DNA of 32,985 bases, from contig MNZA01000167.1 in the NCBI GenBank assembly GCA_001873375.1, positions 1 to 32,985 on the forward strand, in the 5' to 3' direction. The notes under the pieces were generated by a model that saw only the letters and a program-made list of their open reading frames with translations, searched no databases and was not told the DNA's origin. Both the position numbers and the translations under genes were made by a program. Source of the DNA: Oscillatoriales cyanobacterium CG2_30_44_21 (GTDB lineage: Bacteria; Cyanobacteriota; Cyanobacteriia; Pseudanabaenales; Pseudanabaenaceae). Each line of letters starts with the position of its first letter. Positions within the stretch are counted from its first letter, which is position 1. This document shows positions 3,469 to 32,985 of this stretch, piece after piece.

Positions 3469-4884
3469 TTGGACAATCGTATCGTGCTAATTCAATCAGA
3501 CTGGCTTAAGAGTTTGCGAGAACGCTCGTTAGATTTGGAGTTGGGGGCGATCGCCGTAATTTACTTTGTGCAAGGCGCAATGACAATTTCTCAGCTTGCT
3601 GTAAGTTTCTTTTTAAAAGATGACTTAGGGCTAAACCCTGCGGAAGTTGCTTCGATGGTGGGGATTACCATGCTGCCTTGGACGATCAAGCCTCTGTATG
3701 GGCTAATTTCGGACGGGTTTCCTGTATTTGGCTATCGCCGCCGTCCTTATTTGCTGCTATCTAGCGTGTTAGGAATTTTTGCTTGGATCAGTATGGGTTT
3801 ATGGGTGGCGACTCCATTTTGGGCGATCGCCATGATTGCGATCGGCTCTCTGTCCTTGGCTTTTTCTGATGCGATTACTGATGCGCTGATTGTCCAACGC
3901 GCCAGACTCGAAGCTGAAGGCGATGCTGGCTCATTGCAGTCTTTTAGCTGGATTGCCTCTTCGATTGGGGCAATTATTTCCGCTTACTTGAGTGGCTACC
4001 TGTTAGAACATTTTGGCGCAAAGTTAGTTTTTGAAATCACTGCTGTTTTGCCTTTGCTAGTGGGTATCTCTGCTTTTGCGATCGCCGATCCACCGATGTC
4101 TACTATCTTTATTGATGCCCCAAATTTGGATGGGACTGCGCCCAATCTGTCGCGTAACTCTCAGATCTGGCGATCGCTCAGTTACAATTTCACCCAGTTA
4201 AAACAAGCTTTTAAAAATAAAGCGATCTGGCTACCTGCCGCTTTTCTATTCCTTTGGCAAGCGACCCCAAGTGCGGATACAGCTTTTTTCTATTTCACCA
4301 CCAATGAACTCCATTTCAATCCAGAGTTTTTAGGGACAATCAAATTTTTTGCGAGTTGGGCAGGATTATTTGGAGTATGGCTATTTCAGCGTTTTTTTAA
4401 AGGTGTGCCAACCCGCAAGATTTTCTTTTGGACAACTATAATTTCGACCCTATTGGGGCTGACTAGCTTGATGCTAGTTACCCACGCCAACCGATCACTA
4501 GGTATTGACGATCGCTGGTTTAGCCTCGGCGATAGCATCATCTTGACTGTGGCAGGTCGAATTGCGTTTATGCCAGTACTCGTACTAGCCGCAAGGCTTT
4601 GCCCTGAAGGAATTGAGGCAACCTTATTTGCCTTGCTAATGTCAGTTTTAAATATTTCGGCGTTATGTTCCTTTCAGTTGGGCGCAGGGCTAACCTATTT
4701 GCTCGGTGTCACTGAGTCAAATTTTGATAACCTCTGGATCTTGGTTTTGATTGCCAATGTCACTAGCCTGTTACCTTTGCCTCTGCTGAATTGGCTACCC
4801 AATGAACAGGAAGTGAAGAATATGTCTATCAATAATGTTGATGCATCTCTGAGCGATCGCCCTGAAGTAGTTTTGCAAGATTAA
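3469..4884 (+). CDS. Folate/biopterin (FBT) family MFS transporter
   Basis: About 471 residues with roughly 12 hydrophobic segments. The region around LGLNPAEVASMVGITMLPW, then IKPLYGLISDGFPVFGYRRRPYL, is characteristic of the folate-biopterin transporter family (Leishmania BT1, Synechocystis Slr0642), whose members move folates or pterins across the inner membrane. The substrate here is inferred from family only. The longest frame starts with TTG at 3469; GTG at 3484 is an alternative and neither has a clear Shine-Dalgarno sequence. The hydrophilic C-terminus of about 30 residues after the last membrane segment is not conserved-looking. It stands alone and is followed at once by the VOC gene on the same strand. 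Confidence 0.85.
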   Translation: MDNRIVLIQSDWLKSLRERSLDLELGAIAVIYFVQGAMTISQLAVSFFLKDDLGLNPAEVASMVGITMLPWTIKPLYGLISDGFPVFGYRRRPYLLLSSVLGIFAWISMGLWVATPFWAIAMIAIGSLSLAFSDAITDALIVQRARLEAEGDAGSLQSFSWIASSIGAIISAYLSGYLLEHFGAKLVFEITAVLPLLVGISAFAIADPPMSTIFIDAPNLDGTAPNLSRNSQIWRSLSYNFTQLKQAFKNKAIWLPAAFLFLWQATPSADTAFFYFTTNELHFNPEFLGTIKFFASWAGLFGVWLFQRFFKGVPTRKIFFWTTIISTLLGLTSLMLVTHANRSLGIDDRWFSLGDSIILTVAGRIAFMPVLVLAARLCPEGIEATLFALLMSVLNISALCSFQLGAGLTYLLGVTESNFDNLWILVLIANVTSLLPLPLLNWLPNEQEVKNMSINNVDASLSDRPEVVLQD

Positions 4885-5339: not shown

Positions 5340-5400
5340 TACAGCGTTTTGCGCTTAGTTAAAACCAAAGAAATTTTGAAAAGCGGCGCTCCGCGCCGCC
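5340..5400 (-). repeat. Family A element, decayed, reverse orientation
   Basis: The tail TACAGCGTTTTGCGCTTA starts directly after the VOC stop codon. It is followed by AAAACCAAAGAAATTTT and the GC tip GCGGCGC-TCC-GCGCCGC (5383-5399). The outer arm on the far side no longer pairs, so the long stem is lost in this copy. Confidence 0.7.
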
Positions 5401-6741: not shown

Positions 6742-9700
6742 TTAAGCACTAAAGTACTTAGCGATCGCATGATGCACGATTAGAGCCGTTGTTGATTGTT
6801 CTGGGTAGAGTTGTTCACTCTCATCCATAACCAAGTCAACCCGCTTCGCATCTAATAAATCCAGCAGCTTGTATTGATCCTGCATATTTGGACAGGCAGG
6901 GTAGCCAAAGCTATAGCGAGAACCGTGATATCGCTGAGCAAGGATATCGCGAATATTGTCAGGCTCTTCAGCGCCAAAGCCTAACTCATGGCGAATTCTT
7001 GTGTGTGTCCATTCCGCCACAGCCTCCGCCATCTGCACAGCTAATCCATGAAAATAGAGATAGTCGGTATATTGGTTAGCCTTAAATAGTCCTTGAGCAA
7101 ACTCGGTAGCAATGTTGCCCACGGTGACTGCTTGCAAAGGCATCACATCAATAATTCCCGACTCCTTTGGCGAAAAGAAGTCAGCGATACAGAGGCGGCG
7201 CAAGGACTTCTGACGCGGGAAGACAAAAGAATTAATTGGTTGGGTGTGAGCGCTGATGCTATCTACATTTTGATGGTCATACACATAAACCGTATTTCCT
7301 TCCGCTAGCACAGGGAAATAGCCATAGACAGAAGTTGGCACTAGTAACTTCTCTTCAATGATTCGCCCTTTCCATAGTTCTAAAATTGGATAGACCTTCT
7401 CTTGCAGAAAAGCATCATATTCTTCCCTTGACTGTTCTTTAGGCTTGCGGAATTGCCACTGTCCTGCAACTAGGGCTTGCAAATCCAGATTCCAGAATAG
7501 TTCTTCATAAGGAATATCCGCTTCACGAAAAATCTTCGTTCCCCAAAAGGGAGGAGTCGGACGTGGGATGTTAGTTTCGACAGCATCTGATCGCTCGATA
7601 TCGAGATAGCGTTCTGCTAATAGAGCCTCTTGCTTAGCTTTTTCTTCGGAGGCACTGATCGCCGCATCCAGAGCAATACTTGCCTCATCGACCAGATTTT
7701 CATCCAGAAATCCCTGCTTATCTTCCCATTTCCCCTCAGCCTTAGCGGGCATATACTTGTCCATAAAGTTGAGGTCTGAGAAGGCATCCTTGCCGTAAAT
7801 CACTTTACCTTGGTAAACATTTTGGCAATCGTTATATACAAACTTGGGAGTCAAGGCTGCGCCACCGAGGATGACGGGAACACTGATGCCTCGACTGTTA
7901 AACTCTTGCAAGTTGTCCTTCATGAAAGCGGTAGACTTCACTAGCAAGCCACTCATGGCGATGCAGTCTGCTTTATGCTCTTCATAGGCTTTGATAATGT
8001 TTTCGACAGGCTGCTTGATGCCGATATTGACGACTTTATAACCATTGTTAGACAAGATGATATCGACAAGGTTCTTACCGATATCATGGACATCGCCTTT
8101 CACCGTCGCGATCAGGAATACTCCTTTGTTAGAACCTTCGGCTTTCTCCATAAAGTTTTCTAAAAAGGCAACTGCTGACTTCATGGTTTCCGCAGATTGC
8201 AGCACAAAGGGAAGTTGCATCTGCCCTGAGCCAAACAGATCGCCGACAACTTTCATGCCATCCAATAGGAACTGATTGATGATAATCAGAGGTTCATATT
8301 GCTTGAGAGCTTCCGTCAGTGCATCATCTAAACCAATGCGATCGCCATCGATAATGTGATTTTTTAGCTTCTCTTCAATGGAAAGATTTTCATCAACGAC
8401 CTTGATGCGCTTGGCAGAAACTCCTTCAAATAGCTTCGTATATTCCCCAAGGGGATCATAAGTACAGATATCACCATCAAATTGACGCTGATCGTAAATC
8501 AACTGCCGCGCGACTTCTAGTTCTCTCTCGGGAATGCGATTAAGCGGCACAATTTTACTAGCATGAACAATGGAAGAATCCATGCCCATTTTCATCGCTT
8601 CATGGAGAAATACAGAATTGAGAACAACTCGAGAGGCGGGATTTAAACCAAAGGAAACATTGGAAACACCAAGCAATATATGGGTTTCAGGCATCGCCGC
8701 TTTGATGCGATGGATTGATTCAATGGTTGCTGCCGCGTTTTGACGGTCTTCGGCAATGCCTGTGGAGATCGGTAAAGCGAGGGTGTCAAAGAAGATTTCA
8801 CTGGGCGGCATTCCCAATTCTTCGGTGGCTTGTTTGTAGGCACGGCTGGCGATTTCAAACTTCTTGTCCGCAGTTCGCGCCATGCCATCTTCATCAATCG
8901 TACCGATGACAATACCCGCGCCGTAATGTTTAGCCAGACTTACTACTTTGCAAAAACGTTCTTCCCCATCTTCGTAATTAGTGGAATTCAAAATACATTT
9001 ACCACCCGCAACTTTCAAGCCTGCTTCCATTTTTTCCCATTCAGTGGAGTCCAGCATCAGTGGCAGAGTAACATTAGTGACCAGTCGAGATACCAACTCG
9101 TGCATATCTCTTACGCCATCGCGTCCCACATAGTCCACATTCACATCAAGTATGTGAGCGCCCTCTTTGACTTGCGATCGCGCGATCGCCACCAGTCCAT
9201 CCCAATCCTCTGCATTTAATAAGTCGCGAGTTTTCTTAGAACCACTAGCATTAAGCCTTTCGCCGACAATTAAGAAAGAATTGTCTTGAATATAGGGTTG
9301 AGAACTATAGATCGAGGCAGCAGATGGAACAACTAAGGGATGTCTCTGTTTAGGTTTGAGGGTTTTGGCGGCATCGGCGAGAGCCTTGATGTGAGCGGGG
9401 GTCGTGCCGCAACAACCACCGATGACTTGCACTCCTAAGTCTTCGACAAAATGCTGAAGGTGCGATCGCAGGTCATCGGGAGTCAATCGATAGAAAGCTT
9501 GTCCGCCCACATTTTCAGGTAAGCCCGCATTCGGTACACAGGAGACCGCAAAAGGCGAATGCTCGCTCAAGTAGCGCATATGCTCTTTCATTAAGTCAGG
9601 GCCAGTGGCGCAGTTTAGCCCCAGCACATCAATTTGATAAGGTTCCAAAATTGTGACTACTGCTGATATATCGGAACCAACCAGCATTGTGCCAGTGGTT

Positions 9701-10302
9701 TCCATCGTCACGGAGACCATTACAGGGATGCGGGGCTTGCCCTGTTTGGTAACCTTGGCAAAAAATTCTTCGATCGCATTGAGGGCAACCTTAATTTGCA
9801 GGACATCTTGACAAGTTTCGATTAGCAGTAAATCCGCTCCGCCATCGTACAGCCCTTCGATTTGCTCGACAAAAGACTGCTTCATGGTATCGAAATCGAT
9901 GTGCAGCAAGGTCGGCAATTTGGTAGTGGGGCCAATGGAGCCAGCCACAAAACGGGGCTTTTCAGGTGTGGAAAATTCGGCAGCCACGGACTTGGCTAGT
10001 TCGGTGGCTTTTTTGCTTAACTCATAGGCCATGTGCGCGAGGTCATACTCCGCCAACACAATCGATGTACCGCCAAAGGTGTCTGTCTCAATCACATCTG
10101 CACCTGCGGCTAAAAAGTCGCGATGCACCTTGGCGACTGCTTCAGGTTTTGTCATCACCAGATACTCATTGCAGCCCTCATACTCCGCGCCGCCAAAGTC
10201 TTCGGCAGTGAGGTCTTGTACCTGCAAATTTGTACCCATCGCCCCATCAAAAACAATAACAGGGCGATCGCTGCTGTGAAGACGTTCCAGAAACAGACTC
10301 AT
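6742..10302 (-). CDS. metH: Cobalamin-dependent methionine synthase
   Basis: 1186 residues, close to the usual 1180-1230. The four modules are visible in order. First is the homocysteine-binding barrel, with its zinc cysteines in GLNCATGPD (about 230) and [10 protein letters not shown] (about 297-298). Next is the methyltetrahydrofolate pterin-binding barrel, from about 345 ([15 protein letters not shown]). Then comes the cobalamin cap and Rossmann domain with DVHDIGKN near 735-742, whose His is the lower cobalt ligand. Last is the C-terminal AdoMet reactivation domain ([18 protein letters not shown] ... [10 protein letters not shown]). It transfers the methyl group of 5-methyl-THF to homocysteine through methylcobalamin in the cytoplasm. 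No cobalamin or SAM riboswitch was recognised in the short upstream region. The need for cobamide fits cobD at 30810. Confidence 0.98.
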
Positions 10303-10385
10303 GTGTGTATAACCCTAAGCTTAGTAATCAAGTCTAACAAACCATTTTAAAGAAAGTATAGCAAGCTGAGCAAACCCAAATAGAG

Positions 10386-10410
10386 TTAGGCGGCGCTTCG
10401 CGCCGCCTAA
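10386..10410. repeat. GC-rich hairpin core, 11-bp arms
   Basis: TTAGGCGGCGC-TTC-GCGCCGCCTAA is a perfect 11-bp stem with a triloop. It abuts the family B element that follows and lies between the divergent metH and ABC exporter genes. Confidence 0.85.
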
Positions 10411-10512
10411 TACCAAGTAAAGAAATGGCGGAGCCATTTCTTTACTTGAAAACCCATACTGGATTTGGTTTTCAATTTGCAAAAGTGTGATTACAGTTTT
10501 GTGAATTGGTAT
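10410..10512 (+). repeat. Family B element, best-preserved copy
   Basis: The ends ATACCAA (10410-10416) and TTGGTAT (10506-10512) are inverted. Within are a perfect 16-bp hairpin (arms 10414-10429 and 10433-10448, loop GGA) and a conserved segment AAAACCCATACTGG followed by TTTGGTTTTC, which can itself fold. It lies directly upstream of the ABC exporter start and may supply its leader. Confidence 0.75.
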
Positions 10513-10539
10513 AAGATTACAAAAACTAAAAGCATCATA

Positions 10540-12339
10540 ATGCCCAAACCAGCCCACCCTTTCATTCGTCTAACTCGCTATGCCCACAAATATCGTCCCC
10601 AAATTTGGAAGGCAACTACCTACTCGATTTTAAATAAATTCTTTGATCTAGCTCCGCCTGTTTTAATTGGAGCGGCGATCGACTTGGTACTGCAAAAGGA
10701 AAACTTTTGGGCAAATCCTCTAGGTGTGGAAGGGCTAGCTGCACAATTATTTGTGCTATCGGTGATTAGTGGACTGATTTGGGCGTTGGAGTCGATTTTT
10801 GAATATGCATACGCCTTGCAATGGCGCAACCTCGCGCAGACCTTGCAGCATGACCTACGCCTCGATACCTATCAACATTTGCAGGAGTTAGAGCTAGCCT
10901 TTTTTGAAGAACGCAGTTCGGGTGGATTGATGTCGATTGTCAGTGATGATGTCAATCAATTGGAACGCTTTCTTGATGGTGGCGCTAATGAAGTGATTCA
11001 GGTTTCAGCAACCATCCTGTTAATTGGTGGTGCGTTTTTTGTGATTACCCCTAACGTCGCTTGGCTAGCAATGTCGCCGATGCCATTTATCCTCTGGGGT
11101 TCGATCTGGTTTCAGAAATTTCTGGCTCCCCGTTATGCAGAAGTACGGGAAAAGGTGGGAATGCTCAATGGTCAGCTAGCCAATAATATCGGTGGCATCA
11201 CCACGATCAAGGCTTTTGTGACGGAGACCTATGAACGCAAGCGGATTGAGAAAGAAAGCGATCGCTACCGTCAGAGTAATCGCGCGGCGATCGCCTATTC
11301 GGCTGCTTTTGTGCCATTGATCAGAATCTTGATCTTCATGGGATTTATTGCGATTTTGTACTATGGCGGCTTGGAAGTACAGGCTCAAAAATTATCAGTA
11401 GGCAATTACTCGGTGATGGTTTATTTAATTCAGCGTTTGCTCTGGCCATTGACTCGCCTTGGAGAAACCCTTGATCAATACCAACGAGCGATGGCTTCCA
11501 CCAATCGCATTCTCGATTTACTCGACACCCCGATCGCGATCCATTCTGGGACAAAATCCTTTCCTCTGCCCATACTCGATCAAATTCCCATGCGTGGCGA
11601 AATTCTTTTAAAAGATGTCACCTTTGGCTATCGCGCCGATTTTCCAATTGTTGAAAATCTCTCCTTAGAAATTGCCGCCAATAAGACTACGGCGATTGTA
11701 GGCGCGACAGGCTCAGGCAAAAGCACCTTGGTAAAACTGTTACTCAGGCTCTATGAAATCCAATCAGGCAGTATTTTTGTCGATGGTATCGAAATTCGTG
11801 AACTAGAATTGCGATCGCTGCGTTCCTGTATTGGTTGGGTCAGCCAAGATGTATTTCTATTTCACGGTTCGGTTTTAGAAAATATTACCTACGGCTCCTT
11901 CGATGCAACTGTTGATCAGATTGTGGAAGCTGCCAAAATTGCCGAAGCCCATGAATTTATTCTGTCCTTACCCAATGGCTACGACACAATTGTGGGTGAG
12001 CGCGGTCAAAAGCTGTCGGGTGGGCAACGACAAAGAATTGCGATCGCCCGCGCTGTATTAAGGAATCCCCCAATATTAATTCTTGATGAGGCAACTTCGG
12101 CGGTTGACAATGAAACGGAAGCTGCAATTCAAAAATCCCTTGATCGGATTACCAAAAATCGCACCACGATCGCGATCGCCCATCGCCTCTCCACAATTCG
12201 CAATGCTGATCGGATCTATGTGATGGAACAAGGCAAGGTTGTAGAAACAGGAACCCACGATCAATTAGTTGCTTTGAATGGCGTTTATGCAGGTTTGTGG
12301 AATTTGCAAACTGGACAAACCCACGAGGCAATTTACTAA
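10540..12339 (+). CDS. ABC exporter, fused membrane and ATPase domains (MsbA/HlyB type)
   Basis: 599 residues from the ATG at 10540. The frame opens at 10465, but those 25 codons are family B repeat sequence; MPKPAHPFIRLTRYAHKYRP is a normal start for this family. The N-terminal half has six hydrophobic segments of a type IV exporter domain. The ATPase half has Walker A GATGSGKST (about 388-396), signature LSGGQ (about 492-497), Walker B ILILDEATSAVD (about 510-521) and the switch H in AHRLST. All catalytic residues are present. It works as a dimer in the inner membrane; lipids or hydrophobic compounds are likely cargo, but substrate cannot be read from sequence. A hairpin at 12341-12365 lies directly after the stop. 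Confidence 0.93.
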   Translation: MPKPAHPFIRLTRYAHKYRPQIWKATTYSILNKFFDLAPPVLIGAAIDLVLQKENFWANPLGVEGLAAQLFVLSVISGLIWALESIFEYAYALQWRNLAQTLQHDLRLDTYQHLQELELAFFEERSSGGLMSIVSDDVNQLERFLDGGANEVIQVSATILLIGGAFFVITPNVAWLAMSPMPFILWGSIWFQKFLAPRYAEVREKVGMLNGQLANNIGGITTIKAFVTETYERKRIEKESDRYRQSNRAAIAYSAAFVPLIRILIFMGFIAILYYGGLEVQAQKLSVGNYSVMVYLIQRLLWPLTRLGETLDQYQRAMASTNRILDLLDTPIAIHSGTKSFPLPILDQIPMRGEILLKDVTFGYRADFPIVENLSLEIAANKTTAIVGATGSGKSTLVKLLLRLYEIQSGSIFVDGIEIRELELRSLRSCIGWVSQDVFLFHGSVLENITYGSFDATVDQIVEAAKIAEAHEFILSLPNGYDTIVGERGQKLSGGQRQRIAIARAVLRNPPILILDEATSAVDNETEAAIQKSLDRITKNRTTIAIAHRLSTIRNADRIYVMEQGKVVETGTHDQLVALNGVYAGLWNLQTGQTHEAIY

Positions 12340-17275: not shown

Positions 17276-18535
17276 ATGAACTCCTCAACTGCATCCAAGG
17301 CAAACTTCAAAAACTATGTGCTTGTCACCCTCACCTATTGGGGGTTTACAATTACCGATGGTGCTTTGCGACTATTGGTACTGCTCTATTTCAACAATAT
17401 TGGCTATACTCCCATTCAAATCGCTTCACTATTTTTATTTTATGAAGTATTTGGAGTCGTTACCAACTTCTTAGGCGGCTGGATTGGATCACAATTAGGA
17501 CTGAAAGTTACGCTCTATACAGGGATTGGCTTACAGATATTTTCGTTGGTAATGTTATCCTTCCTTAATCCTGAATGGGCGCAGTGGTTGGCAGTTCTCT
17601 ATGTGATGATTGCTCAGGCTTTTTCAGGAGTTGCCAAAGACTTGACGAAGATGAGTACCAAAAGCGCGATTCGCCTAGTCGTGCCGCAGGATGCTCAATC
17701 GGCTTTGTTCAAATGGGTTGCCATTCTCACGGGTTCCAAAAATGCCTTGAAAGGTGTAGGCTTTTTTATCGGTAGTGCCTTATTAGGATTAGTAGGTTTT
17801 ATCAATTCTCTCTGGATTATGGCGGGATGCTTATTTTTGCTGCTATTCACAGGTTTATTTTTACCAAAGGGCATGGGCAAAATCAAAGCAAAAGTCAAAT
17901 TCAAACAACTCTTTTCTAAAAGCCCTGAAATCAATCTTCTATCCGCCGCAAGATTCTTTCTATTTGGCTCCAGAGATGTTTGGTTTGTGGTGGGATTGCC
18001 TGTATTTTTGCGGAGTGTTTTAGGCTGGTCATTCTCTCAAGTGGGTGGCTTCTTAGCCTGTTGGGTAATTGGCTATGGTTTGATTCAATCCCTTGCACCG
18101 ACATTGATCAAGCGCTTTGGTTCTGGACAACCACCGCGATCGCAAACCGTGCGATTTTGGACAAATTCTCTAGTTGCAGTTCCTGCGATAATTGCGATCT
18201 CTTTACAATTAAATCTCCCTGCAAACATAGTGATCATCGGCGGCTTACTAATTTTTGGTGTCGTGTTTGCCTTCAATTCATCGGTACATTCCTATCTAGT
18301 CCTCGCTTTTACTGACGATGACAAAGTGGCTCTAAATGTCGGCTTCTATTACATGGCAAATTCGGGCGGACGTTTAGCAGGGACAGTTCTCTCTGGTTTG
18401 ATTTATGAATTTTATGGATTAATTGGCTGTCTATGGGTATCCGCAATCATGGTTTTAGCGGCGGCGGTGATTACGCGCAAGTTACCTGATCCTGAGCCGA
18501 GTAAGGCGATCGCATGGAAATCTGATGGTGAATAG
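17276..18535 (+). CDS. arsJ: Organoarsenical efflux MFS transporter ArsJ
   Basis: 419 residues from the ATG at 17276. The frame is open from 17087, but the extra 63 codons are the 3' end of gap3 and the repeat, so the later ATG is chosen; the protein then begins MNSSTASKANFKNYVLVTLT. It has about 11-12 hydrophobic segments. The blocks YWGFTITDGALRLLVLLYF, SGVAKDLTKMSTKSAIR and TGSKNALKGVGFFIG are those of ArsJ. The protein sits in the inner membrane and exports 1-arseno-3-phosphoglycerate, which falls apart outside to arsenate and 3-phosphoglycerate. Together with the GAPDH it forms an arsenate-resistance pathway that needs no reduction to arsenite. Confidence 0.93.
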   Translation: MNSSTASKANFKNYVLVTLTYWGFTITDGALRLLVLLYFNNIGYTPIQIASLFLFYEVFGVVTNFLGGWIGSQLGLKVTLYTGIGLQIFSLVMLSFLNPEWAQWLAVLYVMIAQAFSGVAKDLTKMSTKSAIRLVVPQDAQSALFKWVAILTGSKNALKGVGFFIGSALLGLVGFINSLWIMAGCLFLLLFTGLFLPKGMGKIKAKVKFKQLFSKSPEINLLSAARFFLFGSRDVWFVVGLPVFLRSVLGWSFSQVGGFLACWVIGYGLIQSLAPTLIKRFGSGQPPRSQTVRFWTNSLVAVPAIIAISLQLNLPANIVIIGGLLIFGVVFAFNSSVHSYLVLAFTDDDKVALNVGFYYMANSGGRLAGTVLSGLIYEFYGLIGCLWVSAIMVLAAAVITRKLPDPEPSKAIAWKSDGE

Positions 18536-18607
18536 GCGATCGCTTATCCCTGCGCTTTGGTGATTATCGGTAAATGTTGGAGGTTAAGGGCAGAGCGTTA
18601 CCAATTT
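18536..18607 (+). repeat. 72-bp direct repeat, left copy
   Basis: Starts GCGATCGCTTATCCCTGCG and ends GGGCAGAGCGTTACCAATTT. It matches 19836-19907 over the same 72-base length with scattered differences, and the part ending GGTAAATG matches 19797-19835. Copies bracket the toxin-antitoxin-like genes. Confidence 0.8.
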
Positions 18608-18731
18608 GAGGCGATCGCGCCATCAGTCCCTTGTGGGGCAATTCCTCCAGAGTGAAGCTGAATGTCTTGATTTAAGGTAACGGAATCAAACATTTGAAAC
18701 TTACTTATCTTTAATCTTCACTGCTGCAATT

Positions 18732-19775: not shown

Positions 19776-19796
19776 TTTTTAAGTTTTGTATTTGTT

Positions 19797-19907
19797 GATC
19801 GCTTATCCTTTCGGTTTGGTGATTATCGGTAAATGGCGATCACTTATCCCTGCGGTTTGGGGATTTTTGCTGATTTGCGGAGGTTTAGGGCAGAGCATTA
19901 CCGATTT
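19797..19907 (+). repeat. 72-bp direct repeat, right copies (one and a half)
   Basis: 19797-19835 repeats the first half of the unit (GATCGCTTATCC ... TTATCGGTAAATG). 19836-19907 repeats all 72 bases of 18536-18607 with scattered changes. So the right side holds a partial and a full copy in tandem. Confidence 0.8.
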
Positions 19908-19957
19908 AAAAGGATCTTAAAATTTATAAATTGTGGCGGTAATGCTCTGCCCCTAAC
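19884..19957. repeat. Inverted repeat at the 3' end of the kinase gene
   Basis: TTAGGGCAGAGCATTACCG (inside the right direct repeat) is complementary to CGGTAATGCTCTGCCCCTAA (19937-19956) with a single bulged base, across an AT-rich 34-base loop. The second arm contains the kinase stop codon. It may terminate the kinase transcript. Confidence 0.65.
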
Positions 19958-25425: not shown

Positions 25426-25436
25426 ACATTATAGAA

Positions 25437-25519
25437 CAGAGAAACTTTTAAAATCGTGGCAAAGCCACGATTTTAAAAGTTTCTCTGGGTTCTTACAGCG
25501 CTTTGCGCTGTAAGAACCC
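25437..25519 (+). repeat. Family A element: 24-bp hairpin plus 15-bp tail hairpin
   Basis: The first stem has arms 25437-25460 and 25464-25487, starting CAGAGAAACTTTTAAAATCG, loop AAA. The tail here is itself a perfect 15-bp hairpin, GGGTTCTTACAGCGC (25487-25501) with GCGCTGTAAGAACCC (25505-25519), loop TTT. It lies between divergent genes, 91 bases before the cbiO ATG. Confidence 0.9.
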
Positions 25520-27092: not shown

Positions 27093-27176
27093 AAAAACCA
27101 GAGAAATTTGAGAAAGCGGCGATCCGCGCCGCTTTCTCAAATTTCTCTGGTTTTTAATCAAGCCTAAAGCGCTGTA
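27093..27176 (+). repeat. Family A element, 28-bp perfect arms
   Basis: Arms 27093-27120 and 27128-27155 pair perfectly, starting AAAAACCAGAGAAATTTG; the tail AATCAAGCCTAAAGCGCTGTA ends 26 bases before the glycosyltransferase ATG. It is the longest perfect stem in the window and would lie in that gene's leader or promoter. Confidence 0.88.
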
Positions 27177-29355: not shown

Positions 29356-29541
29356 GTTACAGCGCTCTGCGCTAGCTTAAAACCCATAGAAAATTGTAAA
29401 AGCGCCGCTTTTATAATTTTCTATGTACCCCTTAAAGCCTATTGAGGCTATGAGTAGTACAGAGAAATATTTGAAAGCACGGCGGAGCCGTGCTTTCAAA
29501 TATTTCTCTGGGTTTTTCAATTAAGCGCAGAGCGCTGTAAC
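29356..29541. mobile_element. 186-bp composite of two facing family A copies with 18-bp terminal inverted repeats
   Basis: It begins GTTACAGCGCTCTGCGCT (29356-29373) and ends with its exact complement AGCGCAGAGCGCTGTAAC (29524-29541). Inside are a reverse copy with a 19-bp stem (29385-29403 with 29407-29425, one G-T pair), a central AAAGCCTATTGAGGCT, and a forward copy with a perfect 24-bp stem (29460-29483 with 29487-29510). GCA flanks both ends, a possible 3-bp target duplication. It encodes no protein; a MITE-like, non-autonomous element is the natural reading. Confidence 0.7.
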
Positions 29542-30674: not shown

Positions 30675-30725
30675 AGCGTTTAATTGTAAAGCAGCTTGTT
30701 GAAGCCGCGCTTTTAAAAATGTAGT

Positions 30726-30806
30726 CGAGAGAGATTTTGAGAAGGGTTGCTCCGCAACCCTTCTCAAAATCTCTCTCGGTTTTAATTAAGCGCCAAGCGC
30801 TGTAAT
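30726..30806 (+). repeat. Family A element, 25-bp perfect arms, in divergent promoter region
   Basis: Arms 30726-30750 and 30754-30778 (CGAGAGAGATTTTGAG..., loop TCC) pair perfectly. The tail GGTTTTAATTAAGCGCCAAG and GCGCTGTAA ends just 3-4 bases before the cobD ATG. Confidence 0.88.
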
Positions 30807-31793: not shown

Positions 31794-31848
31794 TTGAAAC
31801 CCCAAGAAAATTTTAAAAGCGGCGCTTCGCGCCGCAACGCTAAATTTT
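31774..31848 (-). repeat. Family A element, reverse, decayed stem, overlapping the end of cobD
   Basis: The tail TTACAGCGCTTTGCGCTTAA lies inside the final cobD codons and stop. It is followed by GGGG-TTTC-type spacer, arm CCAAGAAAATTTT and tip GCGGCGC-TTC-GCGCCGC (31819-31835). The far arm TAAATTTTGG still pairs in part. Confidence 0.8.
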
Positions 31849-32873: not shown

Positions 32874-32937
32874 AATACCCAACAAAAAAATGGCGTAGCC
32901 ATTTTTTTGTTGGAAAACCCATACTAGGTTTGCTTCT
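32874..32937 (+). repeat. Family B element, third copy
   Basis: AATACCC, then a perfect 16-bp hairpin (arms 32879-32894 and 32898-32913, loop GTA), then GAAAACCCATACTAGG. The stem CCAACAAAAAAATGGC differs from the copy at 10414 at several positions, each compensated on the other arm. The right end is not recognisable before the window ends. Confidence 0.75.
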
Positions 32938-32985
32938 CAACTCACAAAAACTATATTCATACTACTAAAAACCAATAAGCGAGTG

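Follow-up and report, generated by a model that had tools for sequence, protein, structure and literature searches.

IS1031-type insertion sequences of the IS5 family are associated with a 3-bp duplication of TNA. Bacterial miniature transposable elements (MITEs), among them Nezha of cyanobacteria, Correia/NEMIS and QMITE2, have been reviewed (PMC10969869). Measured against the sections of that review drawn on here, the 103-bp Pseudanabaena element described in this study is MITE-like in being short and gene-less, with inverted ends, a target duplication, many intergenic copies and strong predicted stem-loops, Nezha itself being compared through citations of Nezha. The element differs from the units treated in those sections in its very short terminal repeats, its three separate internal hairpins and its TNA duplication, in having no parent found for it and in carrying loops in both orientations. 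REP/REPIN sequences are defined, in the portion of PMC3733652 used, as palindromes of 20-40 bp with a GTAG/CGTC tag; the element shares with such GTAG-tagged sequences a short palindromic make-up, an intergenic position, a high copy number and an occurrence in cyanobacteria, and is set apart by its 103-bp unit, its 3-bp target duplication and a hairpin foot free of the GTAG/CGTC tag. A further parallel is template switching, which according to the relevant extracts has inverted spacers in perfect yeast hairpins and homogenised their arms, only where arms exceed 9 bp, as rare single events numbering 10 in yeast genes (PMC8604942); the extracts on rRNA likewise report 69 loop-only inversions as rare single events (PMC8794818).

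The window, i.e. the whole stretch of 32,985 nucleotides analysed here, contains one full-length element at 10410-10512 on the forward strand, identified by sequence reading, BLAST and a covariance-model match. Its mobile core, TACC...GGTA (10411-10511, forward strand), is bordered by target-site duplications TAA at 10408-10410 and 10512-10514, assigned from the sequence and from the TNA duplication seen across the family. The terminal repeats, ATACC (10410-10414) and GGTAT (10508-10512), enclose three hairpins, all given on the forward strand. Hairpin 1 (10415-10447) has 15-bp arms at 10415-10429 and 10433-10447 around the loop GGA (10430-10432), which occupies the position where loops are found in both orientations across the family. 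Hairpin 2 (10448-10473) pairs 7-bp arms at 10448-10454 and 10467-10473 around a 12-nt loop with the CATACTGG motif, and hairpin 3 (10474-10507) has arms at 10474-10488 and 10493-10507 and the loop GATT (10489-10492). The family consensus follows the same order, from ATACC through hairpin 1 (15-bp arms, 3-nt loop), hairpin 2 (7-bp arms, 12-nt loop including CATACTGG) and hairpin 3 (15-bp arms, 4-nt loop) to GGTAT, so that the gene-less element forms a trefoil. As a single strand, 10410-10512 is predicted to fold far below dinucleotide shuffles, with z of -8.7 as DNA and -7.9 as RNA.

The original prediction grouped small elements with compensated stems into one family, present in three copies in the window. 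Both the family and the copies were recovered: all three carry the described sequence, and the covariance model matches them at 10410-10512, 838-920 and 32875-32956. The latter two, both on the forward strand, are decayed and without most of hairpin 3, which at 838-920 (58.6 bits) is mostly deleted and at 32875-32956 (52.9 bits) is eroded together with the right end. The 14-mer shared by the copies is exact at 10449 and has one mismatch at 32914 and two at 877; a fourth match with two mismatches, at 3788 on the reverse strand, stands without the surrounding hairpins, and four or more such matches occurred in none of 100 shuffles. The ends of the copy at 838 (ATACCCAA/TTGGGAT) can be paired only if a bulge is allowed.

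The neighbours of the full-length copy, both outside it, are the gene for a B12-dependent methionine synthase (6742-10302, reverse strand) and, divergent from this, an ABC exporter with ABC_membrane and ABC_tran domains (10540-12339, forward strand), the ATG start of which was placed by orthologue alignment. The window also holds a second dispersed family, consisting of long palindromes with a G+C-rich core and A+T-rich arms, at 5361-5399, 10368-10406, 25432-25494, 27094-27156, 29455-29517, 30722-30784 and 31797-31835. These often lie beside a GCGC-rich 36-nt repeat (27142, 29505, 30770, 32785). Related 82-nt direct repeats, with a GGCGATCGC-like beginning, are found at 18535-18616 and 19794-19916.

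In the host genome (3.5 Mb in 272 contigs), BLAST with the 103 bp found at least 40 places at 83% identity or more, these being the best 40 of 314 candidates. A genome-wide search with a structure model, as originally proposed, recovered numerous additional copies that have these ends and stems in common: the covariance model, built from 31 copies, matched at least 150 places, of which at least 91 score 73.4 bits or higher. Matches were present in all 23 Pseudanabaena genomes searched, the host included, and at an E value of 0.01 in none of 15 genomes of other families. A pattern scan of named genomes returned at least 112 stretches, all in records titled Pseudanabaena or Phormidium tenue FACHB-1050, and 80 of these 112 loci were taken into one later search. 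A copy is present on four Pseudanabaena plasmids; named viral contigs (exact pattern) and phages (blastn) gave no match. After removal of truncated copies, copies with less than 15 bp of flank on either side, odd lengths and near-duplicate flanks, 357 distinct insertion sites were retained out of 547 non-overlapping matches. The Pseudanabaena element is a genus-wide, new MITE-like family, and the open-access literature searched contained nothing on Pseudanabaena MITEs.

The copies have terminal inverted repeats ATACC/GGTAT, which are usually in the form ATACCAA/TTGGTAT, and are short for a MITE. At the 250 of 357 sites with intact ends, on which the duplication was assessed, the flanking 3-mers are identical in 195 cases, against a mean of 96.6 and a maximum of 117 when partners are shuffled; TNA accounts for 194 (96 TAA, 92 TTA, 3 TGA, 3 TCA). 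A first set had given 121 of 155. When TACC/GGTA ends with matching TNA were sought irrespective of the internal sequence, 112 pairs were found in 1.57 Mb, of which 94 measured 95-109 bp, and the reversed-sequence control gave 3 in all. A single unit of 41 bp with one hairpin (L183, 19389-19429) likewise has TACC...GGTA ends and is flanked by TTA left and right.

Empty sites are found between two sister genomes, G004 (putative Roaring Creek) and G014 (putative PCC 7429), which share about 93-96% identity across the flanks compared. Where G014 reads GCGTTAC, G004 has a 103-bp insertion with TTA duplicated, in flanks of about 96% identity. A second clean empty site is matched by a 99-bp copy that has entered another copy and duplicated TAA, and at a third locus the two genomes carry separate insertions, 17 bp from each other and each with an empty site in its sister. 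Such sites indicate that the element moves, and it is a MITE-like mobile unit. Two candidate readings were discarded. L124 and L400, taken as orthologues with a compensated change, are two different insertions and became insertion evidence, and a supposed nested insertion of a one-hairpin form at L117 is an ordinary 99-bp copy inside another copy. In putative PCC 7429, copies abut at L138 (2779-2987 and 4499-4869), and the orthologous positions of G004 are occupied differently. In the closest relative at the focal site, G010 (91-94% identity), the element is absent; this is not a clean empty site, as it is occupied by 165 bp of other palindromes. The left half of a GC-core palindrome (10368-10410) abuts the focal element; G010 has the whole palindrome and more palindromes, which suggests a deletion beside the insertion. 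By simple ORF calls, none of 75 copies lies inside a gene, compared with about 70% of random positions; 29 are between tandem, 20 between divergent and 16 between convergent genes, and 10 are at an edge.

By inference, a cut-and-paste transposase of the DDE type would act in trans on the element ends and cut TNA sites with a 3-bp stagger. No transposase with TACC...GGTA ends was found among the PF13359, PF01609 and PF13612 loci of the genus, which have other ends, or by a search for widely spaced ends; the parent that would define a MITE is missing, a point against this reading. Pairs of TNA-TACC and GGTA-TNA ends at 0.6-2.6 kb and 0.5-7 kb delimited only intervals without a recognisable transposase, and the long intervals whose proteins were read by eye contain host genes. 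Clustering of repeated ORFs, again judged by eye, gave no transposase cluster in the 45 largest groups. Relatives carry insertion sequences of about 0.9 kb (about 915 bp at L338, L339, L344 and L346) with GAGCGTGTTTGAGAAG ends and a TNA duplication, and the element shares this 3-bp TNA duplication with IS1031-type sequences. The match of ends expected of an IS5/IS1031 derivative was nonetheless not found, as the ends of the insertion sequences in the genus read GAGCGTG... and are unrelated to TACC...GGTA; these sequences are candidate parents at most.

The original prediction held that both the ends and the stems of the element are compensated. This is correct for the stems and fails for the outermost ends: in the alignment of 31 copies, 13 of 42 stem pairs are changed on both sides, compared with a shuffle mean of 3.8, and the cells changed on both sides number 27 against 6.1 in shuffles, whereas ATACC/GGTAT is conserved, both partners being changed in 0 of 5 pairs. 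Pairing is also better within copies than across them, at 14.44 of 15 against 11.37 for hairpin 1 and 13.98 against 12.62 for hairpin 3.

Compensated stems, a strong predicted RNA fold and the intergenic position of the copies are features that a transcribed structured RNA, or a leader or attenuator, would have if its stems were kept by selection on RNA pairing, and the focal element ends 27 bp before the exporter ATG. Such an RNA is nevertheless considered improbable, and the proposed role as leader or promoter of the exporter is not borne out. The 500 bp upstream of the exporter contain no copy in any of 20 orthologues, the closest relative is without the element at this site, a search of 10300-10620 for promoters of the sigma-70-like type found none, and copies between tandem genes show no preferred orientation (16 same, 13 opposite). 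Selection at the RNA level should tolerate G:U over A:C on the transcribed strand, but stem mismatches on the forward strand comprise 54 G:T against 77 A:C in hairpin 1 and 101 against 162 in hairpin 3, so no wobble tolerance is visible there. An RNA from the reverse strand, in which this A:C excess would become G:U, is conceivable, though shared ancestral mismatches may explain the excess, which is probably inherited in part, many copies sharing one A:C pair in hairpin 3. Rfam gave no match at the gathering score and only sub-threshold matches at relaxed E, and free reverse-complementing of RNA loops, as described below, is not expected.

Loops were counted in copies with at least 12 of 15 positions paired, which left 348 of 357 for hairpin 1 and 330 of 357 for hairpin 3. 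TAC and GTA occur 128 times each in hairpin 1; other loops there are ATA 11 and TAT 13, AAC 10 and GTT 10, TAA 7 and TTA 6. The reverse-complement partner of the loop also occurs for 330 of 348 copies in hairpin 1 (controls: reversal 11, complement 36) and for 297 of 330 in hairpin 3 (controls 0 and 0). Hairpin 3 is biased in orientation, strongly for AGCC (69) over GGCT (7) and less so for AGTC (40) over GACT (17), which means that its orientations are not at equilibrium. For hairpin 2, the one with 7-bp arms, no inversion was seen in 169 cases. Flipping of the hairpins with 15-bp arms but not of the one with 7-bp arms is in line with the extracts on yeast template switching (PMC8604942); unlike the yeast and rRNA cases as reported in the extracts used (PMC8604942, PMC8794818), the two orientations of hairpin 1 are equally common over hundreds of copies.

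The equal frequency, 128 to 128, is also what a site-specific invertase that recognised and switched hairpin 1 might produce. This is very improbable, as the arms are too diverse for a fixed recombination site, 248 copies containing 101 different left arms of 15 nt, and a 3-nt spacer is, to our knowledge, too short for known invertases. Draft assemblies supply most copies, and the two orientations could in principle be an assembly error; this explanation is given next to no weight, since both orientations occur in five assemblies of 1-9 contigs (12 TAC and 10 GTA in 44 copies) and the 15-nt arms would be shorter than usual assembly k-mers.

Among 153 copies of equal length, 368 pairs have 0-2 differences at other positions, and orientation differs in 49% of them for hairpin 1 and 14% for hairpin 3; these pairs stem from few sequence classes, and the flip counts are of sequences and not of independent events. 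Orientation in one hairpin does not depend on that in the other (p 0.84). Six classes with at least two copies are identical outside the loop, and three of them include both orientations, with 4.5 expected at 50:50. Otherwise identical copies differ in hairpin-1 orientation half the time, as if it were drawn randomly at each insertion, and the loop might be inverted during transposition, for example when an extruded or single-stranded hairpin intermediate is handled by the transposase, instead of by replication in place. This is judged unlikely, given that, within the same copies, flips are much rarer in hairpin 3 than in hairpin 1 and that two orthologous pairs at the same site differ in orientation.

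These pairs come from an orthologue scan with masking of flank repeats. L159 and L381, with both flanks 93-95% identical over 700 bp, show an exact GTA/TAC difference in hairpin 1 and also a double change from C-G to T-A in a hairpin-3 pair. L094 and L377 show the same loop difference, with one long flank and the other short to the contig end. L146 and L078 have GTA and TAA, which is not an exact inversion, and L120 and L142, compared in one flank, both have GTA. Two of four usable pairs are therefore exact inversions, one is ambiguous (GTA/TAA) and one unchanged, a small set that favours inversion in place. Three further pairs were rejected as orthologues, L178/L173 for mismatching left flanks and L072/L110 and L302/L183 as different elements.

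The element is probably a non-autonomous miniature transposable element of MITE-like type whose hairpins are reshaped by polymerase strand switching. A polymerase would repeatedly switch strands within the near-palindromes, so that one arm is rewritten from the other and pairing is restored, and the same switching would invert the short spacer in place, at hairpin 1 presumably much faster than point mutation. Template switching both equalises arms and inverts the spacer, and the presence of both signatures in the element fits this process. A simple form of template switching might predict more perfect stems in the minor orientation of hairpin 3, and against it no such link was found (22 of 39 versus 78 of 145, p=0.86). 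It is from the signature that we infer the process, and on this reading the compensated stems would need no RNA function. Put forward more tentatively, as a possibility, is that hairpin 1 is a continuously inverting, self-correcting palindrome, rewritten in place far above the point-mutation rate, and that compensation across the family is a by-product of DNA copying and not of selection.

The class of the element is itself ordinary, and it is the saturation of loop inversion that is unusual. Template switching is known; its saturation across a mobile-element family appears new. Among the matches listed for open-access searches, none on MITEs and template switching concerned bacteria by title, and none on palindromic repeats and template switching concerned loop inversion by title.

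The compensation of stems is widely taken to prove that an RNA is functional. In this element, pairing is kept together with the signature of a DNA process, namely freely inverted loops, no G:T excess on the strand read and a short-armed hairpin as an internal negative control, and this calls for caution in covariation-based RNA discovery. The hundreds of sister copies could serve to measure the rate of template switching. Pseudanabaena would host an active MITE family with a TNA-targeting transposase and, if the continuous rewriting of hairpin 1 is true, each genome would hold dozens of natural recorders of template switching that are independent of one another.
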